Assembly: GCA_003024785.1 (NCBI GenBank)
Contig: PUQB01000144.1
Location: 248,001-312,000 of the forward strand
Direction of reading: 5' to 3'
Source: Selaginella tamariscina
Lineage: Eukaryota > Streptophyta > Lycopodiopsida > Selaginellales > Selaginellaceae
DNA: 64,000 nt
In this document: one piece after another, positions 1,293-61,348 of the stretch
Numbering within the stretch: position 1 is the stretch's first letter
How the letters are laid out: the number at the start of each line of letters is the position of its first letter
The notes under the pieces: generated by a model
Told to the model about the DNA's origin: nothing
What the model saw: the letters and a program-made list of their open reading frames with translations, nothing else
Database searches by the model: none
Translations under genes and position numbers: made by a program

Positions 1293-4200
1293 TCCATGGT
1301 TTAACCTGACTTGACCCATCACGGGCTAGGTCTGGGCTGACCCATGGGTCGGGCCAATTGTTCTGACCCATTTATCAAATGGGTTGGGTTGAACGCCACA
1401 CGTGAGTGACCCGGCGATGACCTATTTAACTTAAAAGACTAAAATATATGAAGTGACTTAAAGAACGTGGCACCACATATGCAAGTACCACGTTTAGTCC
1501 GTCCTTGAAACCCTAGCTAAACATGACTAATCTTGAAGAGTAGACAATGGCTACCAATACAGATGACATCTATGGGGAGTCTATTAATGCTGAGACAGAG
1601 GAGGAGACAGTTCCTTAGAAGTGCTCGAGGAAATCTACATCATTTATGGGGAGCATTACACACATGAGTAAATAGGTATTTCATTACAAGTGTGCCAAAT
1701 TGACCCCAATTGTGGTACTATACCGATAGCCAATGAATTGTATATTTTATACTATATATTTTATATTAGATGGAAAACCAAAGGTACTTTGCAAGTATTG
1801 CAAACGTGTGTTCTCCAATGAGCTGATTGCTAGAACCACACACCTTCACTGTCATGTTAATGAGAGGTGTTCCTCACGGGGTTGGCAACTGGAGAAGAGG
1901 CATAAAATATTAACGATTGGCAAAGGAGGAATAGCTAGAAATCCTTTGACGTCGTGTGCTTTTAACCAAGAAACAAGCTGACATGATCTCGCCAAGATGC
2001 TCATCATCCACGAGCTACCATTTAGAATGGTGGAGTATCCAACGTTCTATAAGTTTTTTATGGGTCTCAGCCCACAATTCAAGATGCCCATCTGCACAAC
2101 AATGCAAGATAACTACATCAAATTGTACATCAAGACAAAGGTTAAAATCAAGGCAAAGCTAAAATTACTACTTGGCTGAGTATCATGCACATCTAACATT
2201 TGGACATCAAACCTAGACAATTAAGTATGCTAAGTTGTATTGCAGTGGACTATGATGTGCACTTTACTAATCCATGATTCTAATTTTTGATTCTACATTT
2301 CAATTACATGGCATTCACATAGCACTATATCACAAAGGATTAGAAGTTACAGAAGCAGATCCTTAACTTTTGCAAATTTCCCTCGCCACACACCGGCATT
2401 AGCATTGCAAACAAGGTGGAGAATTGTCTATTGAAATAAGATTTAACTCCACATCAAGTGATTGCCAAAATGATTCCTTTTGATGTTGGTTTTTGTTGTG
2501 ATTCTATAAACTAAAGTATAATATTGTGGAATTAGTGTATGGCTATTACATTGACAATGCTGCTACCAATGATGTAGTTGCATGCACACTAGTCACAAGC
2601 CTACATCAGACTCAAAGGGACCACTTGTTGTTTAGCAAAAAACATTTCCATATTTATTGTTTTGCTCACATCCTCAACCTAACCGTGCAACATAGAATTA
2701 AGAATGTTGCTACAATTGTGGGGAAGGAAAGTCTTTATTTAGGATGTTGGTAAGATGGATGTGGCATAACATTGCATAATCTAACTAAATTTGTGTTTGT
2801 AAATCCAAGAAAGTGTCAAGTTTGTTACTGGATTTTTTGCTTATAAGCATGTCTTTCATGATAACAACAAGCATTGCAATATCACTATTAAGAAGTAGCT
2901 AATTCTCAATGTGTTAACATGCTAGAATTCAACTTTTCTTACGCTACAATCCATCATTCCATACTGTCAAGTCCTAGAAGACTAGCATGCCCACTACAAG
3001 TTGTGCCCTAATAGTGATGAATTAAGACCCTATGCAAATTTCTTAAACCATTTTATGATGGTATGCATCATTCTAGCCTTCTTGTTTGCTGATTAATTAT
3101 GTAAACATATAGCTCACACAACTTGTTCAGCTACTATTTTTTCTTTGGCAACCAATACTTGACTGCCAACTTGTTACTTGCTGAGGCCTAGAAGGTCTAC
3201 ATCAAGCTTCTTGTTGCCAAGCAAAAGATTGACACCTTCATCCGCAACATGGTAGAGCCAATGAGGACCAAGTTTAAAAAGTATTGGGTTAACACGAACA
3301 TCATGTTCGCCATCTCAACAATCTTGGATCCTCGATTTAAGTTTTAAGTCATTGAGTTCACCTTTAATCAAATTTATGGTGCTAGGAGCAAGGAGGCTAA
3401 GGAGCACATCCGTAAGATGAACTTAAGGTTCTTTTGTTAACTTGTATTACTTGAGTGGTTTCTTAATAGCCTCTTTGGTTTCTTTGCCATGAAATATGAC
3501 CTCAACCCACCTACTTTATAGCTTGAACAACCTAATTCAAATTTCACTACCTCACTTGCCTTCATCATCAACTAGGAGGATGACCTTGACAACTCCAACG
3601 ATTACCTGGCCTCCACCACCTCCACTTCTACTATCCGCAAGACAGACCTTGAACGATACATGGATGACCCACTCTATCCCATGATGATATGTCAAAACTT
3701 TGACATCCTTTAGTGGTGGCAGCTTAATGAGGAAAATATCATGTTGTGACCAAAATGACCCGAGACTTCCTAGCTATGCTGCAAGCACTGTTACAAGTGA
3801 ATTGGTACAAGTGTTACTCTTTTTTTTTTAATTTTGCATACATCCATTTAGCTAAATCTGACACTACATTTGAACGTTCAGGCTTTCAACATCATAGATG
3901 TGTGCTAGATGAATTATGTAGTTCAATGAAACCTGAGACCTTTGAGGCACTGGTATGTGTTATAGATTGGTTGCATGCAGCAGCTCGAACAAATAGAGTA
4001 TGTGTGACACCTTGATTTTCCTCCCCCCGATTTAAAATGTAGTCTACTTTTTTACTCTTTTTATATTCAAAAATACATCAAAACATAAGTTCCTATTGCT
4101 ATGTTGTCTTATACTTGCAGATGGTCAAGAAAAATAGTAAATGGGTTGGATTACTAAAGAAAAACATTAGACTATGTTGGGCCTTGATCTAGTTGGGTTA

Positions 4201-26799: not shown

Positions 26800-28242
26800 T
26801 TAAAACTCGTATTCAAGCTCCTCAGGACCACTGCAAATGTTGGACAGAAGAATATATGGCCCGGATATAGTTGTTTCTAAGCTAGAAACATGCTCTGCAC
26901 ACCTGGCTGCACACTCGGCCTCCTAATACATGTATATTATCATGTTATATTGCTGTATAATGTCTACACACTGGTATTGATCTGTACATTTATACACATA
27001 ATATTGATACATAATATGTGCACGCATACACATTACACAACGCATACCTGATGCACCTTACACGCACCAACTAAAGTCGTCCATGCTACAACATCTGGCT
27101 CAAACGGCATCCTGTATATAGCAGAAGTTATTAGACATGCATCATGTGTGTTTGATGGAACATGTATATCTCTATAGAAGCATAGTATGTACACACACAC
27201 ACAACCTGTAAAGAAGCTCCTCGGCTTCAGAAACCAAACCGAGTCTTCCCAGCAAATCAATCAAACAATGAAAATGCTCCTGAATAACAACACATCTCTC
27301 GCTAGACATCCATCGGAATATCTCAAAACCTTAAGGAGAGAAACAAGTCATGATTACTACACGCGCTATATATAAATTGTACATACCTTCGTCTACAAGT
27401 CCGGCATGAGCACAAGCATGTAAAACGCTCATAAAAGTGATTTCATTTGGCTCAATGCCTTCCTGAAGCATCTCTTGCAGCAGCCCCTTTGTAACTTCCA
27501 CACATGCAAACCTCGAACTTGCAGATATCATCGTATTCCAACAAACAGGGTCCCTATCATAACAAAGATGTGTGTGTGGGTGTGTATGCATGTACGTGGG
27601 TGTGTATCTCTGTGTAATATATAAACATGTAATATAACACATACTGTGTGAGTGTGTGTATATCTACATATACTAGCGGTGCCTCGACCTTCACAAGTAG
27701 CCATTTTTCACTTACACATATCATATGTGTGTATAGCACACACACACACCTATATATACGTACCTTTTTGGCTCGTGTGGAATATATTCTTTGCAACATG
27801 GAAGCTCCCACACCTCGAGTACATACTGACAAGTCCATTCTTCAATAGTGCCATCGGATTGAATCCCAATACTCTTGATCCTCCTGTGAACTTGTACACC
27901 AATAGAAACATCTCCAATGTTCGCACACGAAGCCAACACTTTAGAAAACACAAGCACATCAGGCTCAGTATCCATCTCTGTGTATAGCTTCACAACTTCT
28001 TCATGTAGCCAGCCTCCGCATATGCAGCTAACATGGCATTCCACGATACTACATTCTTTATGTATTCGATCAAAAGTGTTCTTTGCTGATATAATGTCCC
28101 TGCATCTCCCATACATGTTCACCAGGGCTGTCCCACTATCACGTCGGTATCAAGCTTCTTACTCACTATATAAGTTCATGTATTCCCCGGCCTGTTAACA
28201 AATCTTTCGGACCTGAAAAAAGTGCATACGTATATGTACACA

Positions 28243-28278
<36 letters not shown>

Positions 28279-29557
28279 GTAGATCGATACATACATGTCA
28301 ATATATCTACATAGTACATATGTAGAATTCACTAGATACAGTAAACATGCAACAGACACTATCTTTGCCTACAAGTGTAGTTTTCAAAACGGGGCAGGAA
28401 AACAGACACACACAGGTACATATTGACATGTATGTACCTGTACAAGCACACAGCACCGTGGAGAACGTGTATGCATCCGGCTCAAGAGCGTATTTCTTCC
28501 AAAGCTTCCCTGTACATTCCCACAGCTCGGTCATTATGACCTGCCTCAACAAATGCTGCGATTATCGCTGTGAGGCAGACCACGTCCTTGTTTATAACCT
28601 TCTCATAAGAAAAACTGCCTGTTCTAGCTTTCCCCACCTTGAATACATTCTCACTAAAGCTGTACCGACAACTACATGTCCCTCTAGTCCATCAGCCTTT
28701 ACCGATCATGAACAATCTGTCCCTCTTGTAACCCGCAAATTCCCAGAACAATCGAGAATGTAAACACATCTGCATTTATCCCTTCAGAGTTCATCTCCCT
28801 GTACAAAATCATAGCCTTTTGGTATGCCCGGTCTGAGCATAACATGAAACCATGGCATTCCACGTAGCAACAGTCCGGACTCCATTCTCTGGAACACCCG
28901 ATATGCCTCATCTGAGCATCCGCATTTCCCATACATATCAATGAGAGTTGTAACAACTCCCTTGAGAATCATACCCAGTCGAAACCACCTTAGAATGGAT
29001 CGATTTCCTCCGACAAGCACGTAATGAGAGCACGCAACGAGGGCGCGGATGAATATCTGTGAGTTCGGTTCCACTCCTTTACTTGAAAGTTCCTTGTAGA
29101 GTTTGAGTACTTCAGAGTGTTCCCCATTGTGCCCAAATGCATCTACAAGGTTGCTCCATGCCACTACATTGTGTTCGAGGTTGAACTCGTGGAATACAGA
29201 CTTTGCCAGTGTTGGGCATCCGCAATTGCCATACATACGCATAAGAGCATGCCCAAGAAGGTGTTTCGTGTGTGTCCAGCTGAGATATCTGAGAATGTAT
29301 ACGCTTCCGTGCTGTAATGAGTCTGCTGTGTTGCATTTGCGAAGGAGAGATGCTAGCGTCTGGATTAGGTCTACCTGGAGATGAGGACGTGCAGGAATTT
29401 CTTCTGCTGGTCTTCTTCTTCCCGTGTGTGGATTCTCCATGGAAGGCGCTTTGGCGTGGGACTTACCAGGATGTTGATTGCCGCTGCCTCCAAGACACGC
29501 TTCCTCCTCCCCGGCTGTAGATGCCGCCATTGCATTCTCCTCTCCTCTCATCTGCAT
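26800..29557 (-). CDS. PLS-type PPR protein with E-like C-terminus, spliced, frameshifted
   Basis: PPR proteins bind organellar RNA sequence-specifically; PLS-class members with E motifs mostly serve C-to-U editing. The start ATG at 29557 lies just behind a TTTAGGGTTT leader. The repeats contain NVVAWSNLVDAFGHNG, GVEPNSQIFIRALVACSH, LIDMYGKCGCSDEAYRVF, ATWNAMVSCYAQTGH, NADVFTFSIVLGICG, PDAYTFSTVLCACTG, GLVSMYSRCGSFHVAKNIF, IEPNEITFMSVLHACAHAG, HCLIDLLGRLGLVSEAEELL and PFEPDVVAWTTLVGACKVHQ. The gene ends AAECAARC-like, GPYILLSNICSGPEELEYEF, stop 26802-26800. There is no full E+ or DYW domain. The last exons are 27764 and upstream, 27553-27387, about 27351-27206, 27111-27048 and 26922-26800, all with GT-AG borders and consistent phase. 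At least four frame changes fall inside otherwise well-kept repeats (near 28870, 28820, 28510 and 28050), so it is either mis-assembled or a recent pseudogene. Confidence 0.8.
28244..28278. repeat. (CT)n(CA)n microsatellite in a PPR intron
   Basis: Compound repeat inside the intron between PPR exons near 28.2 kb. Read on the gene strand it is (TG)n(AG)n. Confidence 0.9.
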
Positions 29558-29566
29558 AAACCCTAA
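29558..29566 (-). promoter_or_regulatory. Telo-box-like leader motif of the PPR gene
   Basis: AAACCCTAA on the plus strand (TTAGGGTTT in the gene's direction) directly abuts the start codon. Such telo-box motifs are frequent in plant 5' leaders of housekeeping and organelle-biogenesis genes. Confidence 0.5.
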
Positions 29567-29797
29567 ACCTCTTCGTTAAATACATCATATATATTATGTC
29601 TGATAAAAAAAAATGCTTAGTGTGTGCGTGCGTGCGTATCTTGTCAAATATCAGAGATCAAAATCTACAAGTTCATCGATAGTTAAAAAAAAAAAGAATA
29701 AAAATTTAAAGTAGAATATACTAAAAGAATATTCCTGAAATGTTAAACTCCATTAAAGTCAGTTAATGTGTTCTTGACGTGTTAATTCAGCTGGAGC

Positions 29798-32726
29798 ATG
29801 GTGATCCGTGGTAGATCACTCTACGTCCATGGTGTGCCACGCAGGCGTAGACCAGATTGGGATGTAAGTTATATACACATATTATGGAAAACAGACACAT
29901 TTTATAAATATTACATAAGAAATATATTTTTTTATATATAAATTTTTATTTCCAGAGTACTGTTCATGATTTGCATATATTGAAGCTTACTCCTGCCGAG
30001 CTGGTAAGTCTCTTGTGGTTTCTTTATGTTCTTTAATTTCAAGAAAGCGGGGTTTCTTGAAAATGGCAGGATGCAAGATCTAAGGCATTTAAGTCTAAAG
30101 ACTGGACCTGTAGCCCCCTAAACGATCCCCATCCACGGGTAACACACACACACGCACATACACGCACACACATGCATGTTTATACACATACGACTGTTTT
30201 AACATTCACTAGACTATATACATACATACATACTTTTGATGCAACATACACACACACGCACGCACACATGCACAACAGATAAGGTCAAAGCTGGGGATGC
30301 TGATCGTAACAAATCAATAATGAGCAGAGCTAGTAAAGGTAATCTCTGTGTGTGTGTGTGTGTGTGTGTCTGCCTGCAGTTGTGCTTTGTATTCATGTGT
30401 GTGTGTGTGGTTCTTGCATGTGTACAAATGTCTGTGTGTGGCTTGATACGTATGTACATGTTATATAAATATATGTATTCAAATATTAATGTTACTACAC
30501 TATGTGCGTGTGTGTTTGTATCTATCATACTGTAGAACTTATCACTATGTATAATCCATAGAGGCTGTTATGGTAAAGTCTACAAGGAGCTCCGACGAGG
30601 ATGATGATGATTTTGATGAGGATATTCGCCGCTTGGAATCTCTCCAAATGCAAAGGCCTCGGTTCACAAACCTTCACATTTCCGAAAGAGAAAGTAAGTA
30701 GAAACACTCTCTCTATGTATATGTGTGTGTGTGCGTGCGCGCGCGTGTGTAATGTGTGTATGTATAGGAAATAATGAAGTGGGAGTACGAGGAAGTCCAA
30801 ACCTTCTGCAATATCTGGAGATGGAAATGCACAAAGCATGGTTTGAAATATGCACAGCAAAAGCAAAGCATAGACCCAAGCATAAAAAGGTACATTCTCG
30901 TGTGTGTGTGTGTGTGTGTACTCATGCATCATGTGTATGTATGTGAATTTATATATACATATCTCTGTGGTTAATTTATGTAATTAGATTAAAAAAGAAT
31001 GAAGCTGCAAATACGGAGGAAGAAGGTCCCAAGTGAAGCTAATAAAGTGCTGAACATGATCTTGGCTAATCAAAAGTCCACTGCAATCTCACAAATGAAT
31101 CCTTTATTCAGGTTTGCACACACACGTATGCATGCATATACACACATATTAACATGTACATTCCCCAGGAGTTGAAAACCAGCCTGTAATTGACCAGCAG
31201 AAAGTGATACAAGAATGAATGAGTTTCGTATTTCTGCAACAAAGGAACTTAGCAACCTTGTGGTAACGATGCTTAGTTTAATAACACTGCCGTGTGCGTG
31301 CGTACGTGCTTGCGTGTGTGTGTTATATAAGCATCCCGATAAAATAAAGGTGTATTTGTACGTATAACTGGATGTGCAGGAGTTAGTCCAGAAAATGCTC
31401 TCAATTCAGCAATCAAAAGCTCCAGTTGTGGATTTGCCGGAGAGACGATGGGATTAATAATACTATAGTTGAAGGTGTATATATAAAAGATATAACATCA
31501 ATATATGCATATGTGTATTATATACCTGTATGCATATTATTATTAATATTTGTGTTATTTTTAAATGACATTAGTTTGTTATTAATATCTGCGCAGCAGG
31601 GATACGTCACTTGTGAACCAAGATCGACTCAACTACATATACCCCAAATGGTATTCCCCTAAGGCAAGATAGTTTTTAGACACATGTTTGTACACGAGTT
31701 AGCCTCGTTGTGTTGTGTGTGTACAGCATTGATATATATATATATTATATATTTATTCACACGGGAAGTGCCTACATTCTTAAACAGCGATTCAATGGTT
31801 CATCAGCCTCACTCTTCATTGCAAGGTGTTCTTCTCGCGGTATGCTTAATAATATTATATGTATAGTAACATTAATGTACATAGTTTATTATATTTATAC
31901 AAATATCTTCGTTTATATACATGTACTCTCTCTCTATACACACACGCAGCACGCACACACGCACAAGGCACAAACCTATTTACACGATATATTAACAGGA
32001 GAAGGCCAACCAAACAAGGCGCTAAACCCATAGAAACAAGAGAAGGCTTCCATCATGTACATTAAAACAAGCTCACGAGTTGCAACACGTGGATCAAAAT
32101 CACACGTGGACGAGTTTGACAGGCGAGAAATCCATTATTCGAGTCCGAGAAATGCATTGCAATTCAACGTGGTCCATTCAAGAAATCTAGGGTTCATGAG
32201 CATCCCACATCACCAGCTTGGAAAGGTGTGTGTGTGTGTGTGCGTGTGCGTACATTTTTTACATGCATATATACTCATGTGTATATTTTCTAAGGTGAAG
32301 GTACACAAAGTTCTAAAGAGGTTGAAGTTTACCATGCCAAGGTCAAAAGACTTCAACATGTAAACCTATATCAACTTTTATATCACCGACACTTAACCAG
32401 GTCAAGTCATCTAAAACCTAATTCACCATCAATTTCTTCACCAATTGTAAACCTAGTAATACGTCAGCCCTACGACCTTACATGTCATGCAAGGGTAACG
32501 TACGTCACCAACGACCACGTTTGAAGTGTGCCAACGTTTCTGAAGGTGTACCAACTCATAGGCCGTCAGCCACATGCAGGGCTCAAATGTACCAACGTTT
32601 AGGTCACGTGATCATTCAAATGCTGCTAGAGAAGATCGATCTACAACGTGTATATTACCAGCGGGAAGCCAGAGGTAGCTAGAAAACAGCCAGCAGTAGT
32701 GGAAAAACTTACTGAGTCTCAGGTGA

Positions 32727-32764
<38 letters not shown>

Positions 32765-33013
32765 GCACGCACGCACGCACGCCCATATTCAACGAAGTAT
32801 TGTTTCTAGGCTGTGTGAATGGACCAAGGTACAAACTGCAGGGATGGTCTGCAGCATTCCTAGATAGACCAGTAAGTATATAGAATGTAATCTTCCATGT
32901 ATTATGTATCATAATATACACCATGCTCTTATTTGCATATAACTATTATTGCAGGCAAAGAATAATGCTCAGAGATGTGGGATCAGGAGAGCATAGTCTC
33001 AGTAGTTTTAGTT
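29798..33013 (+). CDS. Intron-rich gene of unknown function
   Basis: The gene is divergent from the PPR gene, with starts 240 bp apart. The proposed start at 29798 gives MVIRGRSLYVHG, then PRRRRPDWD. Exons with GT-AG borders: 29798-29863, 29956-30003 (STVHDLHILKLTPAEL), 30070-30138 (DARSKAFKSKDW...), 30279-30338 (DKVKAGDADRNK...), 30562-30693 (acidic run SSDEDDDDFDEDIRRL) and 30768-30889. Later exon-like blocks lie near 30990-31110 (VPSEANKVLNMILANQKST), 31170-31260, 31380-31465 (ELVQKMLSIQQSKAPVVDL), 31595-31665, 32000-32225 and 32800-33000. The phase slips by one base between exons 3 and 4, and two frames compete in the 30768 exon, so the model contains errors or the gene is damaged. I recognise no domain; it looks like a mostly disordered, charged, possibly nuclear protein. 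Exons 1-4 are duplicated at 13.6-14.3 kb. Confidence 0.5.
32727..32784. repeat. Compound (CT)n(CA)n(CGCA)n microsatellite
   Basis: CT units pass into CA units and then into GCAC units just before an exon-like block of the unknown gene. Confidence 0.9.
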
Positions 33014-33289
33014 TGATGCTTTATATTTAATAAAATAACAATATTATTAAAGTAATATTTATATTAATGTTTTTGTTCTATATGCATGTGTGTGGTGTGA
33101 AAGTTAAACAAAGCAATTAGTTTAATAAAATATCATATGAACGAATTTAGTGATTATTCAATGTAACTTAACACTACGTTCAAATGACATATAGTTGTGA
33201 CAAGAAAAAAAACAATAATATTCGGACTATTTGTTAAAGTACATATATATATTTTTTACAGTTTAAATGGTGAAAATATATTTTAAATA

Positions 33290-33560
33290 TTATAAAATTA
33301 ATGTAGTAAAGTATATTAAAACAATTATAAGATTACTGAGTGCGAAGTGAGCCTATCAACGGCTGTAAAGAGTTTGATCTCCACCGTTAAAATTTGAGTT
33401 AGTTTTAAATTTAAATTTGACATTTATTAATAAAGAATTAAATATTATTAAATATATAATATGATTAACAATATGAAAGATTTTTTGATAATAAATCGTT
33501 AAAATAATTACTATCTATAATATAATGTGTAATTATAAAGGATCGTTGGTAATAAAAATG
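33290..33560 (+). repeat. Dispersed repeat, family 3, copy B
   Basis: Partner of 17490-17770. About 75 bp downstream, at 33633-33645, GGGTTCGAATC resembles a tRNA B box (RNA polymerase III promoter element), which would suit a SINE; I see no A box. Confidence 0.5.
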
Positions 33561-33799
33561 TACTAGTATTGTTAAAATTTAACTGATGAATCACATGAAA
33601 AACGATCAAGAAAATTAAAAGCTATAAAACTACGGGTTCGAATCTAAGGCATTTAAAATCCAAAACATTACGTACGTTTTGCATGTATATACATGTGTGT
33701 TACCCTCGTGAACACCGTGGATCGCACACACACGCACGCACACGTGTGCTAACGCAAATCATATAAAATTTATTAAGAAGATGTCTTTAGATCACTTCC

Positions 33800-34191
33800 T
33801 TAGCAACAGGCAAGCTTGCCATTGTCGTTGCTAACGTGCTCAGGTCTAACTGTGTTCCATTTGCATGCGCATGTTATGACATTCGCTGGATATCACAGCT
33901 AACGAGTTCCGGTATACAGTCCGTCATACGGATGGACGTAAACCTCACCGTGCCGCTGTCGTTAGGACACGTGGTTTCAGAACTGTAAGTCTTCGCAATG
34001 AACTTATTTGCACTGCATGAGTTGATGAACGGGTTACAGCCCTCAGAAGTACCCTGCAGTATGTTTAATTTATATTTTAGAATACAATTTAACTTATATA
34101 TGTTTTATTAAACTAAGCTTAATTGATTGATTTACTCACCACAAGTGCAAGTACAAAGCAAACTATGCAACAATGAGAAGCTTGTAGCCAT
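33800..34191 (-). pseudogene. Broken copy of the small secreted cyanovirin-like protein gene
   Basis: Alignment with the better copy at 36939-37324 shows the same two-exon layout, intron and splice sites. The signal-peptide exon (34191 downwards) starts MAT and has two one-base deletions plus one substitution in 54 nt, which abolish the hydrophobic core frame. Exon 2 has several one- and two-base differences. Its last residues SNDNGKLACC-stop are kept, with a conservative Arg-to-Lys change. As read it cannot make the secreted protein. Because almost all differences are indels, sequencing error must be considered before calling it dead. Confidence 0.6.
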
Positions 34192-34447
34192 TCAGATGGA
34201 TGTTGATATATAAAGTATGAGAAAAACTGAAATGTATTAGCCTGTATTGAGTTTATTTATATATGGTATTGACGGTGGCTTGACGGGTGCTCTAGACAGA
34301 GATGATATTCTTGATGGTTTTGTCCCAATGGTGTTTGGGAGCATTATATAGAAAACGTTAAGAAATAGAATATACTTTATAATTTTATTTATACAAAAGT
34401 AATAATATACCCTTTTAAATTAAAAGGTCATTGTATTTTAATTTTTA

Positions 34448-34451
<4 letters not shown>

Positions 34452-34515
<64 letters not shown>
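34452..34515. repeat. (TA)n microsatellite
   Basis: About 30 TA units. At the equivalent place in the right copy of the duplication (about 37842-37855) only about seven remain. Confidence 0.9.
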
Positions 34516-34522
<7 letters not shown>

Positions 34523-35888
34523 AATGAAACAAAATGAAGTTGCATCATAAAAATTATAAATAAAGAGATGCCAATAAATCTACTATATTGTGAGATATAT
34601 GTTGAAGTTAAATATTACAAATTAATTGAAATTTTTAGTTCATTTCTAAATATATTCCATTCTTTAAGTTGAAGTATATAAAATTTTAAATTGATACACA
34701 CATATTCGGGTGTATTTCACCCAACTATATATTATAACATGCACACACAACATATCAGTGTATGTTATATATTTTATGTAGGCACAAATAACAACTTCAT
34801 TCTTATTTTATTTATTATGTTAATATAATAAGAATATGTTATTTGAGAATGAAAACATGTTATTAAAAAAATTATAATTTAGTTTAATAATTTTCATTTT
34901 AATACTAATCAAATAAACTTAAATTGATTAATATACTTAGGGAGTATAAATAATATTAATCAATCTTAATCATTTAAAACACACACCTCTATGTGCATGT
35001 ATGCGTGTGTTTTGCTATACGTACATCTACGTAGGCATTGGTTGACAATAATCGGCAAGTAAATTTTTTTCTTGTCATGTACTATGTACATATATACATT
35101 TTAAATTGATCACTGTATTTTAATTTTTAATTTAATAAAAATATATGAAACAAAATGAAATTTATTAAATGAGCATTAGTAAATTATCATTAAAAATTAT
35201 AAGTAAAGAGACCAATATATTATATTGTGATATATATGCCTGTTTTGAAGTTAAATATTACGAACGCACGCACGCACGCACGCAGACATACATATACCTC
35301 TAGTGTGCAGCACGGATTTCCCTTCTGTTCGATGTGTATTTCACCAAGTTAATTTCACAAATTGACTTTCATAAAATACTTCACAAATTGACTTTCATTA
35401 AATTATTTCTTTAATTTATTGCATCACAAAATTAATACATATGTATATTCATATTAAAACATTTATTGCACATGAAATATAAATTTAGATAAACAATATG
35501 TTATTAACATATTTTAAAATTTGAACCATTATAATTCTTAAATGAAATTTAAATCCAAAAGAAAACTAAGAATATTAAATGCAATGCATCGTCCATATCC
35601 AAACACTTCAAGTTAAGATTTTATTTAATATATTTTAATAACATTTTCTTAATCAAAATGTAAAGTTGTATAAAATTTAAACTACCTTGTTACTTAATTA
35701 CTTTAATTACAATTTTTAAAATAAAATTTAAACCATAATTAAAAAAATAAATATCCTTAGGATACATTTCTTATTTACATGTGAAACAATAAAATGATGT
35801 ATCTCGATCTGATAATAATTATGTTAATCAATTAATTAAATTAAAATTACTTAAATAAAGTTTTAATACATAATTTAACACTATCATT

Positions 35889-36618
35889 TAGGACCGATTC
35901 ACACCATACATTAAGTTGTGAACATTACATTATCTATTATTAATTTAATGTTATTAATTAATGTCATTGATTTTCACACCAGCATTAGTTAATCATAACA
36001 TTAGAAAATTTTAATTAATGTAACATAATTTAATTTAATTTAATGTAAATGACTTCACACTATATTACATTAAAGTTATTAACATATACGTTGTTTTTAC
36101 ATATGTTTTACATTAACTTTATATTAAAAGCTCAATTTATTATATTTAAATATTAAATATTATTTTAGGTTCCACAAATTTTGAATTTTCCTTTAGTTTC
36201 CGCATACACATGCGCACACACATAAATTGAGATTTAAAATAATATTTAATATTTAAAAATTTTAATTTAAAGATTTAATTTAATTTAAAAATTTAATTTA
36301 AATATATGTTTAGCTATCTACCATGTCTGAGGAGCGTTTGGAGCTCTTGCCGTTTGCACGCCTAATATAAAGCTTAAAACCTTTGGCATTAAGTTAATTC
36401 TAAGAAATCTTAGCATTAACTTAATGTCAAATTTTATAAAGAAAACATTAATTAAGCATTATCTTTTTAATATTTAACTGGTGTACATAAATTTGCATTA
36501 ACAAATGACATTACATTATCTTTTCAAAATTTAATCTAATATTTTATGCCAGTGTAAAGACAATTACATTAAATTTAACTAATGTTCATAAGTTAATGTG
36601 TGGTGTGAATCTGCCCTA
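35889..36618. mobile_element. MITE with about 40-bp terminal inverted repeats
   Basis: The left end GGACCGATTCACACCATACA, continuing TTAAGTTGTGAACATTA, is the inverted match of the right end (read inward GGGCAGATTCACACCACACA, then TTAACTTATGAACATTA). About 31 of 37 positions agree. A TA dinucleotide flanks both ends (35889-35890 and 36617-36618) and could be the target duplication. The 726-bp interior has no coding capacity and is rich in ATTAA words, partly arranged as further inverted repeats. The superfamily is unclear: a TA target suggests Tc1/mariner, while an imperfect TTA/TAA would suggest PIF/Harbinger. Confidence 0.65.
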
Positions 36619-36938
36619 AGTTTATATATTTAATTATATAAACCAAATCAACTGTTTCTCAATTATGATTTCATTAAAAGCTATAAACTAGGAAACACAA
36701 TATATTAAAACAGTTAAAATAAAAATCCCAATATTTCATTAATCATAACTATGAACATAAAGATAGAGAGCTAATCTCCCAGTGGATCTAAAGTATTTAA
36801 AAATCCAAACACTACGCACGTATGTATGTATGTATTTATATTGTAATATATGCGTGTGTGTGTACACACGCACACACACGTGCGAACAATGAATCGTATA
36901 AAAATGGCACTTGTTTTTATTAGGAACAGTTCACTTCC

Positions 36939-37324
36939 TTAGCAACAGGCAAGCCTGCCATTGTCGTTGCTAATGTTGCTCAGGTCTAACTGTGTTCCAT
37001 TTGCATCCACGCATGTTATGACATTCGCTGGATATCACAGCTAACGAGTTCCGGTATACAGTCCGTCATACGGACGGACGTAAACCTCACCGTGCCGCTG
37101 TCGTTAGGACACGTGGCTTTCAGAATTCTAGTCTCCGCAATGAACTTATTTGCACTGCATGAGTTGATGAATGGGTTTACAGCCCTCAGAAGTCCCTGCA
37201 GTTATTTTAGTATACAATTTAACTTGTTATATGTTTTATTAAACTAAGCTTAATTGATTGATTTACTCACCACAAGTGCAAGTACAAAGCAAACTACTGC
37301 AACAGTGAGAAGCTTGTGAGCCAT
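36939..37324 (-). CDS. Small secreted Cys-rich protein, cyanovirin-N-like
   Basis: Exon 1 (37324-37271) encodes MAHKLLTVAVVCFVLALV, a signal peptide of 18 codons, and ends at a GTGAGT donor. A 75-bp intron ends CTGCAG. Exon 2 starts at 37195 in the same phase and reads GLLRAVNPFINSCSANKFIA, then ETRILKATCPNDSG and TSVRMTDCIPELVSCD. The frame then stops at 37018-37016. Shifting one frame at about 37030 gives ANVITCVDANGTQLDLSN, then ISNDNGRLACC and stop at 36941-36939. The patterns L-ATC--DSG--T and TC-D-NG--LDLS-IsN-NG-L-C fit the half-repeats of cyanovirin-N homology lectins, known in ferns and fungi. At about 85 mature residues it is shorter than the usual ~100. Role inferred: extracellular carbohydrate-binding or defence protein. 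It may be frameshifted by one base or truncated to 77 residues. Confidence 0.5.
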
Positions 37325-38656
37325 TCCAAAGGATGGATGTGTATATATAAGTATGAGAAAAACTGAATATGTATTAGCCTGTATGTGAGTTTATTTATAT
37401 ATGGTATTTGACGGTGGCTTGACGGGGTGCTCTAGACAGAGATGATATTCCTGATGGTTTTGTCCCAATTAGTGTTTGGAGCATTATGTAGAAAACGTTA
37501 AGAAATAGGAATATACTATATATTTTATTTATACAAAAGTAATACTTTTTTTTTTTTACATATATAGATAATTTAAGTATTGTATACGCATTGTCTCAAT
37601 ACTATATGTTAAATGTTGAAACTAATATTTTGATATTAATTAGTTTATATCAATATATATTTTTCTGTCTCTTTTTATTAAAAAATATTTTTATTAAAAA
37701 CAAACAATTCATAAATAAAATTACCAACTTGGAAATGCTTGAAAATATTAAACTTACATATATACACTTTAAATTGATATATATACCAACTTTAAATTAA
37801 AAAGTTCATTGTATTTTAATTTTTAAAATTATGATGATTTAGTATATATATATATAATTAAATGAAACAAAATGAAGTTGCATTATAAAAATATAAATAA
37901 AGAGATGCCAATAAATCTACTATATTGTGAGATATATGTCGGAAGTTAAATATTACAAATTAATTGAAATTTCTACCAACTATATATTATAGCATGCATA
38001 CGTACGGACACACACACATCAGTGAGGCACAAATAACAACTTATATTTATTATGTTAATATAATAAAATATAATGTTATTTGAGAATGCAGACATGTTAT
38101 TAAAAAAATTATAGTTTAATTTAATTAATTTTTATTTTTTAATAATAATCAAATAAACTTTAAATTGATTAATATACCTTAGGTGAGTATATCCTAGATG
38201 TTATAACATTAATAATATTAATCAATTTTAATCATTTAAACACACACCTCTATGTGCATGTATGCGTGTGTTTGTGTTATTACGTACATCTACGTAGGCA
38301 TGGTATCGGCAAGTAAATTTTTTGCTATGTAAGTGCTTGAAAATATTATACTTACATATATACATTTTAAATTGATATATATACAATTGTATTTTAATTT
38401 TTAATTTAATAAAAATATAAAAAAAATGAAGTTTATTAAATGAGCATTAGTAAATTATCATTAAAAATTATAAGTAAAGAGTAGCCAATAAATATATTAT
38501 ATTGTGATATATATGCCCTGTTTTGAAGTTAAATATTACGAACCAATATAAATTGAAATTTACACACGCACGCACGGACGCACGCAGACATACATATACC
38601 TCTATTGTTGTGGTGTGCAGACACGGATTTCCCTTCTTTTCGATGTGTATTTCACC

Positions 38657-38687
38657 AAGTACACACACACACACACACACACACACC
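38657..38687. repeat. (CA)n microsatellite
   Basis: About 14 CA units in the right copy of the duplication, at a position where the left copy has no comparable run. Confidence 0.85.
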
Positions 38688-39155: not shown

Positions 39156-41715
39156 TTAAGGGTTCTGCTGCCCAGTCCTTTGCCCATTGATTGATTGAAG
39201 TACCGACTGTAATTGATCCCCGAACTGTGGACCCATAACATAAACATTAAACAAAGAAACACACTTACACACGCGCACACGTAATATTCGGTGTTGTAGA
39301 TATTTGAATGTACACTTGGAGTAGCTAATACAACTTACAAACGCACTGTTAATGTAAATCTATAATGCATTCACTGGGCAAATAAATAAAATGTGAGTCC
39401 AAATGTATTATGATGTTAAGATTATCTTATCTTATATAAGGTAAGAGATCGATTACATATGTACCATGTCACCGAAGTTGAATCGATGCTGAAATCCCGT
39501 TGCTGCTCTTCCCTGATTGTTAGTGCTACCCGCTTGCTGGCTGTTAGGAGCTTGTTGCTCATTCTCAAACAAGTTCCTCATTCTGTCCACAATTTCTTCC
39601 GATACATCCACGCCAACTGCAAGAAACTCAATTCGTTTTGAAAGCTCCCTCTCCCTCTCCCTCTCCCTCCCTCCCTCTCTCTCTCTCTCACACACACACA
39701 CACAGAGTGCATGATTACTCTTATACCAGCTTCGGGGGTTGTAGCGTCATTTGTTGGAGTAAAAAGATTTGCCCCAAACTGAGCAGTTACATTGACACCA
39801 GGAATGCGTATTTCAGGCTAAAACATCACCATTGGTTAATTCGCCGTTTCATTATCCGGTATGATAACGTACCTCTGCCGGTCTGCTGCTATGGGCCATT
39901 TCATCAAGCTTTTGCCTTGTGCTCTGTAGTACAAAGTCAGCTACCAATCGATTTAACCTATGTGCCATTTGTGCCTCAGCATAAAGACTTGAAGGCAAGT
40001 ATCAAAATATATAAATCACTTACAGACACATACACACACGCACTTTATTTATATATATATTGTCATATGCAAATCTACCTGAAGATTTTCGTTTGCTGAC
40101 GTGTTATAAGGATCCACCTCTAAAGCTGGAAACAACCACGATGTCTCAAGTGGTTATCATAGCTCTCTCTCCCTCTCCCTACATATATATGTGCGTGCGT
40201 GTGTGCTTGTTTGTGTGTGGAGATGCTTACCTTTACTGAACCAATCAATGGCTTCCTGGTAACGTCCTTGAGAATAATACACAAGGCCCAATCGACTGTA
40301 CGCCTTACTGTAACGTGGGTTTATCTCAATAGCTTTGTGACAATCCATAATTGCTGCCACCGGATTTCCTGCTTGTGTATGAGCAGCTGCTCTATAAGAA
40401 AAAACACCACCAATCAGGTTTTGCACGAGATGATCACATGCGTACACACACACATGTATACATGTTGCACTATACATATGTTATCAGGGCACATACACAG
40501 GATGTGCTTGCATACATACCATCGTATATAATGAACTGTTACCTGTTTGCGAAGTAGATGGCATTGTTACCCCACATAGAAATCGCTAAAGTATAAAGCT
40601 CGATGGCCTCCGTATAACGCTTAGCTGCCATTGCCCCATTTCCTGTTTTAAATGAAAACATAAATAGTGTCGAAGACGTACAAAACATGGATTTTTCGAT
40701 TGAAATTAACACAACAGCAGAAGTATTTTAATTTGATGACGGACCTTACCTTGTGCCTTAAATGCTTCAGCAAGTACTTCGGATCGGCATTTGCCTTGAT
40801 ACTTCTGCAAAACAGAACCAAGTTACAAAACCTCAATAAACCTCAATATAGTGCATTGCAAAAGATACACCAAACTCTTAACATATCGTATCATATAATT
40901 ACAATATAATCTCATAGGCATGCGGCAAACCTTCAGAATAAATATAATAGAAGCATGCCTTTAAGGTCTCTGAGAAAGGGTTTTAGCTTGAGCTAAGCGA
41001 GCTTCACGTTCGTTACTAAGGAATCCGGCACTCTCTAAGCCTTCAACAAACTGCCCATAACCTGCATTAATAGAGAGTTAGACTTGCAACGCTAATGCAT
41101 AAACAACTGAATATTACCTTCTCCTAGGTCTCGTTCCTGTAGCGTAAGAAAGAACATAAGTAAACATACTAAACGTTAAAAAGACTAAACTGCAGATTAT
41201 ATGTATAACAATAATGTAATAACTACACAACAACATTGAATCTATAGAAAATACGTTATATATATATATATAATATATATGCATAATGTCATTGGTACAG
41301 ACAATAGTGAATAGCAAATATATTAGATACTCTCTCTCTATATATATACATACATGTTTACCTCTTCAGGAGCCGCTGTCGGTTGCTGTATCAAAGCGTC
41401 TACAAGAGAAACTCGCGCATTTTCTTCATTATCCACCTGATTCCGTAGATCAAAGACCTGATTCAAGCATTCGACAGCAACCTCTAATCCTTCCGCATCT
41501 ACGCCCGGAGCAACCTCAACTATAGACAGAGCACGTACACACTTAAGAAAGTCCGCATAAAAACACAAAGATTTCTCAGCGAAATCAGCAGAAAAAAATG
41601 AAATCAAGCAAATCCCCCAATATGAGATATTTGTACCTGAATTCTGTAGAAAATCAACGAAAGATCTCACAATCCTCCTTGCATCTTCGGAATCGCTCGG
41701 AATGCGCCTCGCCAT
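39156..41715 (-). CDS. SGT: SGT/SGTA-type TPR co-chaperone, 12 exons
   Basis: SGTA-type proteins bind Hsp70/Hsp90 tails through three TPRs and hand tail-anchored or mislocalised proteins on in the cytosol. Exons (minus, GT-AG): 41715-41637, 41519-41362, 41136-41118 (19 nt), 41061-40931, 40804-40750, 40642-40543, 40391-40231, 40125-40079, 39974-39873, 39817-39727, 39616-39465, 39224-39156. Total 1164 nt, about 387 residues. The N-terminus (RRIVRSFVDFLQN, GLEVAVECLNQVFDL) fits the SGTA dimerisation domain. The TPRs cover about residues 145-260: NGAMAAKRYTEAIELYTLAI, IYFANRAAAHTQAGNPVAAI, CHKAIEINPRYSKAYSRLGL, YYSQGRYQEAIDWFSKALEV. The C-terminus is Gln-rich (NEQQAPNSQQAG, QRTGQQNP-stop). Phases agree throughout, but exon 4 reads into TAA at 40963-40961; an adjacent frame stays open, so a base is missing or the exon border differs. 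Confidence 0.85.
39650..39705. repeat. (CCCTCT)n(CT)n(CA)n microsatellite in an SGT intron
   Basis: Imperfect CCCTCT units pass into CT and then CA units inside the intron between exons 10 and 11. Confidence 0.85.
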
Positions 41716-41762
41716 AGACCCTGAATGAACAACCCTAAGCGAGAAAAAAAACCCTCTGGTCC

Positions 41763-41770
41763 TAGGGTTT
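41763..41770 (-). promoter_or_regulatory. Telo-box-like motif upstream of SGT
   Basis: AAACCCTA in the gene's direction, about 50 bp before the ATG, within a leader that also contains a second ACCCT word. Such motifs near plant transcription starts are associated with growth-related genes. Confidence 0.45.
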
Positions 41771-41879
41771 TGTTCGTATCTTTAGCAACTACGGTGATTC
41801 CACCTGCATTGCGTGCGAAATCGAACTCGGGCTGAAAAATCCCTTGTGTTCTTTGAGCAAGCGTGATATAATAATAATA

Positions 41880-47914: not shown

Positions 47915-49273
47915 TGTCATAGTTTTTATTATGATCTTTACTTTTACTTTAGAGTTGATTGTTTAGGGGTAGTCTAGCTAGCTGTCTTTAACTACCTTAA
48001 GAAATTCTAAGCAAAGGTAGCACTTACCTTTTAAAATCTCTTTATCCTCGTTTTTCATGTTCTAGTTAGGTTATTGTTTAGTTTCAATAAGTTCAACATG
48101 TTGAATATGGGTATGACACCCCTACTCGAGTTAGGGTTTAAGGGTTGATGTGTCATTAAGTTAACTCACCAAGTATATTTCCATTGGAAATAAGATTTTG
48201 TGCTAGCCCACTTTACAAAACAAGAAAATAAGGGGGAGCCTTTGTCACATATATTAAGTAGTACTTGTAGGAGAGTTTCTAGGTTCATGACTAAGTTCGT
48301 TACTCTTTTACCAGTGCAAGCTCTAGCTTGTGTCATTAAGGCACAACCCTCTGTTATGCTGCCCTAACTTCTAAATGACAAGAGTATGTCGGTAGCTACC
48401 CTTAACATTGACAAATCCATGCATGGGAGGTCCTATTGAAATGCACATTCCAAGGGTCAGAGGATGAGACATGTCTTCATCTTCCTCCTCCATGTTACCT
48501 AGTTCCTGAGAGGGTTTTAGAGTTGACATTTATAAATCATGTTTGTGACATTTGATGTAACTCTTGAATTTAAGGGGCTATGGCATGATACCCCCATCAA
48601 GGGAGACAGTGTCACATGAAGATGTGACACTAAGCTAGACAACACGTTGTACAACACTCGAGGCATGCCTTTTGGGGTTGTGTCATGGGTTTAATGCTAA
48701 GGGGTTGGATACTCTAGCAAGCAAGTGTGTTTGTGCTAGCAGGTTATGAGGCATTCATGAGGTCGTGCATTCAAGGTTATCCAAACTTAGCCTTAGAGAG
48801 TTTGCTTAGCAGAACACTCGTGTCTGCCTATGGAACACACTCATGGCCTCAGTAAGTACTAGCCTTAGGTCTAGAGTATGACTTGGCCACTCAAACCCTT
48901 AGGGGTTAGACGTGGTTTAGGGTACTCCTTATCGCCCTATAGGGTTGTACTTTTAGATGAGGGTGATTTCTTTAGGGGTAAGTGACAATGCCTTAACTCT
49001 GTCATGGGAGTATGTGTGAGACACGTCTCCTTAATGAGGTTAGGGCATGAGCCTGTCTAGGTCTCTTAAGATAGAGTCCTAAAGTTTACTCAGGTTGTTC
49101 TTTAGGGTTCAGGGGATGGTCATTATAAGGGACTTAAGGTAGGATGGGCATTTGAGTTAGGCTCTAGAGGTTGTTTTGAAAAACTTAATGTTGCTCATAT
49201 AGGTGATGATGCCAGATGGCCACTTAGCAGCTATGTGTTACATGTGTTGACCCTTCGGGTTAAAACTCTGACA
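47915..49273 (+). mobile_element. Solo LTR, decayed, related to the 54-kb element
   Basis: Starts TGTCATAGTTTTTATTATGA and ends GGGTTAAAACTCTGACA, the same termini as the LTRs at 53998 and 59597. It runs collinearly with them over 1359 bp against about 1750, so it carries deletions. No internal region follows. The flanks CAAGG (47910-47914) and CAAAA (49274-49278) could be a mutated 5-bp target duplication. Most differences from the 54-kb LTR are C-to-T or G-to-A, as expected from methylated, silenced DNA. Confidence 0.75.
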
Positions 49274-53997: not shown

Positions 53998-55763
53998 TGT
54001 CATAGTTTTTACTATGACTCCTCTTTACTTTGGACGTTGACTGTTGTTACCTACTGTACTATGTTGCAAGCCCTAGATGTAGTGAGAAACAGCCCCGCTT
54101 AGTGCACTTAGGTGTTTAGGGGTAGTCCGGCCGGCTGTCCTTAGATATCGCGAGAAACTCTAAGCGAAGGTAGCACTTACCTTCTAGAAAACTCTTACCC
54201 TCGTTTTCCGTGTCCCGGTTGGGTTAATGGTTAGTTCCGGTGAGTTCGGCGTGTCGGATATGCTTAGAAATACCCCTAGGTTTGACAGGTTAGGGTTTAG
54301 GGGTCGATGGATAACTCACCAAGTATGTTCCCTCTGGGAATGAGATTTCAGTGCTAGCCCACTTATGTAAACAGGAAAACAGGGGGGGGGGCTCTGTCAC
54401 ATAAATAAGGTAGTATATAGGAGTGAGGGTTCCTGGGTTCATGACTGAGCTCGTTACTCTTCTCCCGGTGCAAGCTCTAGCTTGTGTCGTCAAGGCACAA
54501 CCCTCTGTTGTGCCGCCCTAACTTCCAGATGCCAGGGGTACGTCCCACCTTCGGGGTAGCTTACCCTTAACGTTGGCGAATCCATGCCTGGGAGGTCTTG
54601 TCGGAATGCACGTTCCAAGAGGCAGAGGTTGAGGCTTGTCTCCAGCCTCCTCCTCCACGTCAAGCTAGGTGTAGCACTCACGGCCAAGCAAGGCACATCC
54701 GTGTCCTTGTCCAACTGTGGGCGTGGGATCTTGTTTGACAGGTTCACTTACCTGGTTCCTGAGGGTTCATTGAGGGGTTCTAGAGTTGGCATTTAGGAGC
54801 CACGTGTACTTGGTGCAACTCTTGAATCTAAGGGCTATGGCATGATAGCCCACATCATGGAAGGCAGTGTCACATGGAGATGTGACACTGGGCTAAACGT
54901 CACATGGTACAACGCCCGAGGCACGCCCTTTGGGGTTATGTCATGGGCTTGTCGCAAGGGGTTGGATACTCTAGCAAACAGACATGCTTGTGCTTGCACT
55001 AGGGTGCTAAGCCTTGGGCATCCGCTCAAGGGAGGTTAGGTCTAACTAGGTGTGCTTTGGCACACTTGGCTAGGGGAGTGTTCTCCTTGGAATTCAAGGG
55101 TTGAACAACCTAAGCGTGTTAGCAGGAGCCCTTTCGTGAGGCACTCGCAAGGTCATGTGCTTAGGGTTATCCCAAACCTAGCCTTAGGGAGTTTGCTTAG
55201 CAGAACACTCGTGTCCGCCTACGGCGCACACTCGTGTCCTCACTAAGTACTAGCCCTAGGTCTAGGGTATGACTTGGCCACTCAAACCCTTAGGGGTTAG
55301 TCGTGGTTCAGGGTACCCCTTGTCGCCCTAAAGGGGTTGTACTCCGGATGAGGGTGATTCCTCAAGGGGTAAGTGACGATCCTTAGCTCTGTCACGGGGT
55401 ATGTGTGGAACACACGTCTCCTTGATGGGGGTTAGGGCATGAGCCTGTCTAGGTCTTCTAGGGCAAGACCCTAAGTCAACTAGGGTTATCCCTCAAGGGT
55501 TTTGGGGGAGACACTCTAGGGAGACTTAGGCTAAACCCTAAGTCAACTAGGGTTATCCCTCAAGGGTTCTGGGGGCAGACATTCTAGGGAGACTTAGGCT
55601 AAACCCTAAGTCTCCTGTCCACTTGGGCATTAGAGTCTAACCCTAGGGGTCGTTGGGGTTGTTCTGGGAAACTTAGCGTTGCTCACACAGGGTGATGACG
55701 CCGAATGGCCACCTGGCAGCCACGTGTTGCCACGTGTTGGCCCTTTGGGTTAAAACTCTGACA
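53998..55763 (+). repeat. Left LTR (1766 bp)
   Basis: Begins TGTCATAGTTTTTACTATGA and ends GGTTAAAACTCTGACA. Contains the tandem internal repeat of about 70 bp CCCTAAGTCAACTAGGGTTA...AGGCTAAA (55469-55615, two units). A run of eight or more G lies at about 54382-54391. Confidence 0.88.
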
Positions 55764-55765
55764 AT

Positions 55766-55778
55766 TGGTATCGGAGCC
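55766..55778 (+). other. Primer-binding site (initiator tRNA-Met)
   Basis: TGGTATCGGAGCC, two bases after the LTR, matches the plant consensus TGGTATCAGAGC for the initiator methionine tRNA 3' end with one change (A to G). Confidence 0.85.
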
Positions 55779-59596: not shown

Positions 59597-61343
59597 TGTA
59601 TAGTTTTTACTATGACTCCTCTTTTGGATGTTTCTGTTGTTACCTACTGTACTATGTTGGCAAACCCTAGATGTAGAGAAACAGCCCTGTTTAGTGCACT
59701 TAGGTGTTTAGGGTAGTCCGGCCAGTTGTCCTTAGATATCGTAAAAAACTCTAAGCAAAGGACACTTACCTTTTAAAAAACTCTTACCCTCATTTTCCGT
59801 GTCTTGGTTGGGTTAATGGTTAGTTCGGTGAGTTCGGCGTGTCGGATATGCTTAGAAATACCCCTAGGTTTGACAGGTTAGGGTTTAGGGGTCGATGGAT
59901 AACTCACCAAGATATTCCCTCTGGGAATGAGATTTCAATGTAGCCCACTTATGTAAATAGGAAAACAGGGGGGGGGGGCTTTGTCACATAAATAAAGTAG
60001 TATATAAGAGTGAGGGTTCTTGGTTCATGACTGAGCTCGTTACTTTCTCCTGGTGCAAGCTCTAGCTTGTGTCGTCAAGGCAAACCCTCTGTTGTGCCGC
60101 CCTAACTTCCAGAGTAGGGGTACGTCCCACCTTCGGAGTAGCTTACCCCTTGGCGAATCCATGCCTGGGAGGTCTTGTCGGAATGCACGTTCCAAGAGGC
60201 AGAGGTTGAGGCTTGTCTCCAGCCTCCTCCTCCACGTCAAGCTAGGTGTAGCACTCACGGCCAAGCAAGGCACATCCGTGTCCTTGTCCAACTATGGGTG
60301 TGGGATCTTGTTTGACAGGTTCACATTACCTGGTTCCTGAGGGTTCATTGAGGGGTTCTAGAGTTGGCATTTAGGAACCACGTTTGTGGTACTTGGTGCA
60401 ACTCTTGAATCTAAGGGCTATGGCATGATAGCCCACATCATGGAAGGCAGTGTCACATGGAGATGTGACACTGGGCTAAACGTCACATGATACACGCCCG
60501 AGGCACCCTTTGGGGTTATGTCATGGGCTTGTCGCCAAGGGGTTGGATACTTAGCAAATAGCATGCTTGTGCTTGCACTAGGGTGCTAAGCCTTGGGCAT
60601 CCGCTCAAGGGAGGTTAGGTCTCATAACTAGGTGTGCTTTGGCACACTTGGCTAGGGGAGTGTTCTCCTTGGAATTCAAGGGTTGAACAACCTAAGCGTA
60701 TTAGCAGGAGCCCTTTCGTGAGGCACTCGCAAGGTCATGTGCTTAGGGTTATCCCAAACCTAGCCTTAGGGAGTTTGCTTAGCAGAACACTCGTGTCCGC
60801 CTACGGCGCACACTCGTGTCCTCACTAAGTACTAGCCCTAGGTCTAGGGTATACTTGGCCACTCAAACCCTTAGGGGTTAGTCGTGGTTCAGGGTACCCC
60901 TTGTCGCCCTAAAGGGGTTGTACTCCCGGATGAGGGTGATTCCTCAAGGGGTAAGTGACGATGCCTTAGCTCTGTCACGGGGTATGTGTGGAACACACGT
61001 CTCCTTGATGGGGGTTAGGGCATGAGCTGTCTAGGTCTTCTAGGGCAAGACCCTAAGTCAACTAGGGTTATCCCTCAAGGGTTTTGGGGGTAGACACTCT
61101 AGGGAGACTTAGGCTAAACCCTAAGTCAACTAGGTTATCCTCAAGGGTTTCTGGGGCAGACATTCTAGAGGAGACTTAGGCTAAACCCTAAGTTTCCTGT
61201 CCACTTGGGCATTAGAGTATAACCCTAGGGGTTGTTGGGGTTGTTTTGGGAAACTTAGCGTTGCTTACAGGGTGATGACGCCGAATGGCCACTAGCAGCC
61301 ACGTATTGCCACGTGTTGGCCCTTTGGGTTAAAACTCTGACAG
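59597..61343 (+). repeat. Right LTR (1747 bp)
   Basis: Collinear with the left LTR. Differences are a mixture of C-to-T/G-to-A changes (for example CCCCGC to CCCTGT, CGCGAG to CGTAAA, CTCGTT to CTCATT, mainly in its first 250 bp) and many one- to three-base deletions. Confidence 0.88.
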
Positions 61344-61348
61344 TTGTC
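61344..61348. repeat. Target site duplication, right
   Basis: GTTGT, matching 53993-53997. Confidence 0.8.

Follow-up and report, generated by a model that had tools for sequence, protein, structure and literature searches.

A putative compact cyanovirin-like lectin gene, present in tandem copies, in the lycophyte Selaginella tamariscina

The window analysed here is a 64,000-nucleotide stretch of the Selaginella tamariscina genome (GCA_003024785.1, contig PUQB01000144.1, positions 248,001 to 312,000), and contains two direct copies of a small gene on the minus strand. Copy A runs from start codon to final stop at 37324–36939 and copy B at 34191–33800, at a spacing of ~3.14 kb. Both have a TATA-like box, a signal-peptide-like exon 1, a short intron and a Cys-rich exon 2 (Table 1). 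A preliminary description, made from the sequence without database searches, had proposed two copies 3.1 kb apart, each with a signal peptide, a short intron and a Cys-rich domain; the arrangement, boundaries and parts were borne out, with exon 1 of copy A judged signal-like by eye. The intron donor and acceptor of copy A are preserved in copy B and in a third copy of the gene on another contig, C719, where exon 1 has the same reading as in copy A. The TATA-like element also occurs in copy B, and is one base shorter in C719.

Table 1. Positions of the gene copies, their parts and related features (window coordinates unless a contig is named)
Feature	Position	Strand	Remarks
Copy A, exon 1	37271..37324	-	start codon and signal-peptide-like hydrophobic sequence MAHKLLTVAVVCFVLALV; open frame, 18 codons
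Copy A, intron	37196..37270	-	75 nt, GT...AG, phase 0
Copy A, exon 2, CVNH-like first half	37016..37195	-	frame closes at TAA 37018-37016
Copy A, exon 2, second half	36939..37034	-	ITCVDANGTQLDLSNISNDNGRLACC; different frame; own stop 36941-36939
Copy B, entire gene	33800..34191	-	frame-broken in exon 1 and exon 2 second half; blastn identity to copy A 91.5% over 634 columns
TATA-box-like element	37392..37401	-	TATATAAATA; 68-77 nt upstream of copy A start codon; by sequence
Left duplicated segment (gene B and upstream region)	33789..35349	.	blastn vs 36928-38660, several aligned pieces
Right duplicated segment (gene A and upstream region)	36928..38660	.	blastn vs 33789-35349, several aligned pieces
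Canonical CVNH gene	C494:133315-133783		convergent with short paralog; Pfam CVNH 31.8 bits at 133523-133783, above cut-off
Convergent canonical and compact CVNH pair	L013 (G000:C494:132902-136168), 414-885 and 1483-1827	+ and -	

The two duplicated segments are separated by ~1.4 kb of other sequence, and between the copies lie 61-nt inverted repeats (35867–35927 and 36580–36640; 77% complementary, spanning ~770 bp in all) that are probably the ends of a MITE. A neighbour of the gene pair is a TPR co-chaperone gene resembling SGT/SGTA, seen as exons at 39456–41781 on the minus strand (SGTA_dimer match just below the cut-off). Elsewhere in the window are a hAT-type transposase remnant (3731–4012, plus strand; Dimer_Tnp_hAT match below the cut-off) and two direct repeats of ~1.75 kb, 94.6% identical (54002–55767 and 59600–61346), which are probably the LTRs of one retrotransposon, with related sequence at 47960–49136.

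As assembled, neither window copy can be read through in one frame. The frame encoding the first domain half of copy A is open in 37019–37201 and stops at 37016, with the second half open in a different frame (36942–37034). The C-terminal motif highlighted in the preliminary description is indeed present in copy A, only not in the frame of the first half. This break between the domain halves is common to both copies, and copy B has further breaks in exon 1 and internally within its C-terminal half. Common descent, or joint polishing, explains a break shared by both copies better than two independent errors, and this particular break may be genuine.

The copy on C719 is intact. A search of the plant's own genome (300.7 Mb, 1391 contigs) returned three matches, the third being this copy at C719 220880–221305, which forms a single open frame across both exons, with a signal-like exon 1 and an exon 2 encoding 85 residues with eight cysteines. 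C719 aligns colinearly with both flanks of the pair (window 44.7–36.8 kb and 34.4–17.3 kb) and carries one gene only. On the copy B side the two contigs differ by 0.57% substitutions overall; on the copy A side divergence is at most 0.2% at 38.0–41.5 kb, 6.8–11.8% at 42.0–44.7 kb, and 3.4% over the whole piece. Judged from these alignments, C719 is probably the other haplotype of the locus, the divergence at 42.0–44.7 kb being the reason why this is not sure.

As C719 holds a single copy, the pair may exist on one haplotype only, or be an effect of assembly in which two haplotypes with one gene each were joined end to end. The colinearity of C719 on both flanks of its one gene fits such a joining, as does the position of the left copy in a base-poor stretch that perhaps derives from few reads. 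It nevertheless appears rather unlikely, since substitutions between copies A and B amount to 3.0% (19/634 columns), against 0.2–1.4% in most of the blocks nearby when the two contigs are compared, and since the ~1.4 kb between the copies, with its MITE-like element, finds no match of at least 120 bases in 26.9 kb of C719. Moreover, the C719 gene (220896–221294) resembles copy A in the 5′ part and copy B in the 3′ part, the switch, placed by eye, lying near the end of the intron. Intragenic recombination between the members of an older pair, on the other haplotype, would give such a mosaic, which would equally fit a collapsed assembly.

The quality of the assembly bears directly on the frame breaks. 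Among 16 of the 18 repeat pairs in the window (two short pairs were left out), one-base indels occur at 0.9–2.7 per 100 columns, independent of the level of substitution (Spearman 0.28, p 0.29). Because indel frequency does not follow divergence, indels weigh much more heavily against substitutions in the youngest pairs: 55:87 in the three youngest, compared with 99:869 in the other thirteen. Within the duplicated segments, single bases are missing more often on the copy B side (24 vs 7, p 0.003). Comparison with C719 over 17–34.4 kb gave 25 of 35 500-base blocks at ≤0.4% substitutions; in the seven such blocks of 31000–34404, 7–12 gap events per block are missing in the window, and five of the seven are at ≤1.4% substitutions. 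The excess of missing bases in 31000–34404 is a sign of weakly supported consensus. Similarly, a PPR gene (27334–29575, minus strand) has many frame hops despite good repeat motifs throughout (by eye); where it hops, C719 has a 182-residue open frame, and the C719 PPR gene is also not in one frame. With one-base indels so frequent here, single-base frame breaks are poor evidence of decay, and many of the breaks in the window look like assembly indels.

The window copies could alternatively be true pseudogenes, with a real break preceding the duplication, so that this haplotype would yield at most a truncated half-domain of ~77 residues, or nothing, and C719 would carry the intact gene. In favour of this, the two copies have the same sequence across the break, at which C719 is open, and copy B has its several further breaks. 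Set against this are the frequency of one-base indels between repeat pairs at any divergence and the bases missing from blocks barely diverged from C719. In addition, the other exon 2 indels between A and B sum, by eye, to multiples of three, and shared errors could arise when near-identical copies are polished with the same reads. Pseudogene status is a serious possibility, albeit one falling well short of even odds.

Kinship with the cyanovirin-N homology (CVNH) family was assessed using a profile of single CVNH halves, built without the window from 12 sequences taken from solved structures and one cyanobacterial protein. In a scan of all 2796 six-frame segments of at least 15 residues in the whole window, the first half of copy A ranked first (15.3 bits) and its second half ranked second (10.9 bits), the latter matching over a short stretch only (profile positions 31–47 of 50). 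Local shuffling that preserved dinucleotides gave 100 control windows, of which none reached 15.3 bits and one reached 10.9 bits, and no pair of matches of at least 6 bits within 400 nt on one strand was found in any of them. The C-terminal piece of copy B ranked third at 6.4 bits, which alone is meaningless because 78 of the 100 shuffles reach that score, and the first half of copy B was absent from the 12 best rows of the scan. For the intact C719 exon 2, the same profile found two domains totalling 20.6 bits, the best shuffled version giving 10.5 bits (2000 shuffles, of which 1835 obtained a score). Both tandem CVNH halves are therefore found in copy A and in C719, the resemblance exceeds chance, and the relationship of the gene to CVNH in both halves is supported. 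The likeness to CVNH proposed in the preliminary description thus stood up in a profile search of all six frames.

Matches to the Pfam CVNH family (PF08881) lie below its curated cut-off of 24.5 bits for every short-form query (16.0–21.6 bits). The window pieces bridged by X scored 20.5 bits (E 8.5e-4), aligned to profile positions 1–40 only, and a query with just the first half of copy A scored 16.4 bits; the first half of copy B, and the second half alone, gave no Pfam match. C719 exon 2 scored 21.6 bits alone (E 3.7e-4) and 20.6 bits with its signal peptide. Weak Pfam matches to PetM, Yeast-kill-tox and RRP40_N_mamm (E 0.019–0.13) were dismissed. Phmmer searches of the PDB with the X-bridged window pieces and the intact exon 2 retrieved no CVNH chain; their one match, 8h2i chain P22, consisted of many stretches of at most 5.5 bits each and was also dismissed. 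Profile–profile alignment gave an E-value of 2.1e-6 over 83 columns, nearly the full length, with the longest gap (12) between the halves, and a scripted repeat scored 31.3, whereas 200 column shuffles reached 20.2 at most. A scan of genome contigs with a CVNH alignment yielded one cyanobacterial relative of cyanovirin-N (CV-N), and viral contigs scanned for CVNH gave no match.

More distant relatives occur in the same genome. A protein search returned 12 matches, on C719 (one), C443 (four, the window copies), C494 (two), C140 (one) and C812 (one), and on C291, C951 and C996 (three together), the last showing no CVNH-like pattern by eye and being taken as noise. One C494 short form (C494:134387–134728) is an intact, intronless 114-residue frame; in the assembly, the reading frame is broken in the second form on C494 and in the C140 and C812 ones. 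The intact form is 30% identical to that of C719, and each has eight cysteines at nearly equal spacing, a C-x-P-x3-S-C linker and a GKL-x-CC end. It reached 16.0 bits against Pfam CVNH, for which the second C494 short form had no match. By eye, the C719, copy A and C494 proteins all have a hydrophobic N-terminus. At all four short-form places (two on C494, and C140 and C812), there is a nearby convergent CVNH gene of the canonical type, or the broken remnant of one, similar pairs to that in Table 1 being found near 170 kb on C494, on C140 and on C812, some of them frame-broken. C812 is probably a sister contig of the second C494 place, to judge by 96.5% identity over 12 kb. The shortening of the domain, also raised in the preliminary description, does not stem from the broken state of the window copies, as the intact C719 form and its distant intact C494 paralog share the same short linker. 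The existence of intact relatives suggests that this slim form is a real protein type.

The cysteines of the compact form are spaced C-x6-C-x15/16-C-x16-C-x6-C-x8/13-C-x21/22-CC. In C719 exon 2, the cysteines that correspond by alignment to the C8–C22 and C58–C73 pairs of CV-N are C13/C29 and C53/C62. A full-length CVNH domain (~100 residues with its linker) is not matched, as there are ~80 residues and a 12-residue gap between the halves. An AlphaFold2 model of C719 exon 2, from three sequences, reached pLDDT 84.7 and pTM 0.71 at best, with five models at pLDDT 65.5–84.7; the C494 paralog, modelled alone without an alignment, gave pLDDT 55 and a useless model. When the C719 model was compared with the PDB, the best 23 Foldseek rows were all cyanovirin-type (E 5.3e-4 to 0.14, five rows at ≤0.001), as were the best 18 VIA-align rows, so that the compact protein, as modelled, has the CVNH fold. 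The sequence is short and its Pfam scores are sub-threshold, which would be compatible with a chance resemblance in an unrelated cysteine-rich peptide. That explanation is highly improbable, given that an unbiased scan found both halves on one strand and in the correct order, and that the top ranks for the predicted fold hold cyanovirin-type chains only.

In CV-N, lobe A consists of residues 1–38 and 90–101 and lobe B of residues 39–89, with the tighter site in B (PMC9725752). The residues without a partner in the profile alignment correspond to about CV-N 44–55 (D44–I55), within lobe B. Some of these presumably contribute to the lobe-B site and to the domain-swapping hinge. The SIDLN-type motif is altered in the compact form (TSIRMTDCI), and the lobe-A elements, namely the C-terminal NDNGKL/NSDGKL loop and the N-terminal SC segment, are retained in both lineages. 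Loss in lobe B with lobe A kept points to a compact, mainly one-site lectin, or to a non-lectin descendant. The latter would be a secreted, cysteine-stabilised protein that kept the fold and lost sugar binding, perhaps put to another use such as binding proteases or microbes. The missing lobe-B residues and the altered motif would agree with such a loss, as would the C494-type short forms, for which a selection test detected no purifying selection (13 non-synonymous to 1 synonymous, not significant, p 0.16). This outcome is rather unlikely, with the preservation of the lobe-A loop and SC segment in both lineages counting against it. The C494 and C140 short-form paralogs also show ~19.5 non-synonymous to 1.5 synonymous changes (not significant, p 0.15).

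The preferred reading, given a probability of roughly two in three from the sequences and the model, is that the locus is a gene for a compact, probably secreted CVNH-like protein, whose window copies are broken as assembled, with many assembly-like indels, and whose C719 copy is intact. Such a gene would encode a small protein of a compact subtype, with a signal-like peptide followed by ~80–85 residues and eight cysteines, that is predicted to fold like CV-N, with ~12 residues missing from between its two halves and smaller gaps within the second. The protein would be secreted and may be held rigid by extra disulphides. Since part of lobe B is missing, mannose-type glycans would be bound mainly via the site formed by the two ends, equivalent to CV-N lobe A, and the likely role would be in apoplastic defence or recognition. 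A wider proposal, judged to be only just short of even odds, is that of a miniature cyanovirin, in which a plant lineage trimmed CVNH to an eight-cysteine, largely one-site form, with one lineage kept in a convergent pair with a canonical lectin, and another duplicated and recombined.

Like the compact form, CV-N (PDB 1iiy and others) has a two-half fold with a cysteine pair per half, whereas the compact form lacks counterparts of about D44–I55 and has a shorter second half. CrCVNH of Ceratopteris richardii (PDB 2jzj) has, in a 95-residue stretch, four cysteines with the second and third 36 apart, compared with eight in the compact form and 24 between those aligned. Type III MoCVNH-LysM lectins (PDB 2l9y, 5c8o), which appear among the VIA-align rows, have a CVNH fold altered between the halves by an inserted domain, whereas the compact form has residues missing. 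A contrast within the same genome is provided by the canonical C494 gene, convergent neighbour of a short form, in which the linker GNGDGELVYPGASYLDTC is retained and the second half is full.

CVNH is reported in bryophytes, lycophytes and ferns and as lost in gymnosperms and angiosperms (PMC6362431), agreeing with the earlier remark that these lectins are rare in plants; the same source gives CVNH as the second largest lectin family of Salvinia cucullata (PMC6362431), and a fern CVNH, CtCVNH, is described as carrying a signal-peptide-like sequence (PMC3645700). Among the literature matches listed, no title or abstract opening describes a shortened CVNH, which is not proof of absence. The view of the window gene as a CVNH relative shortened between its halves and present in tandem copies holds up well. 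Short CVNH relatives fall below the Pfam cut-off, so surveys may miss them. CVNH proteins have been studied as antiviral lectins, and little is known of what they naturally do in plants or how widely they occur there. A natural compact CVNH lacking the linker and with additional cysteines, if true, would reveal how much trimming the fold tolerates, and could be compared with the canonical paralog of the same plant.
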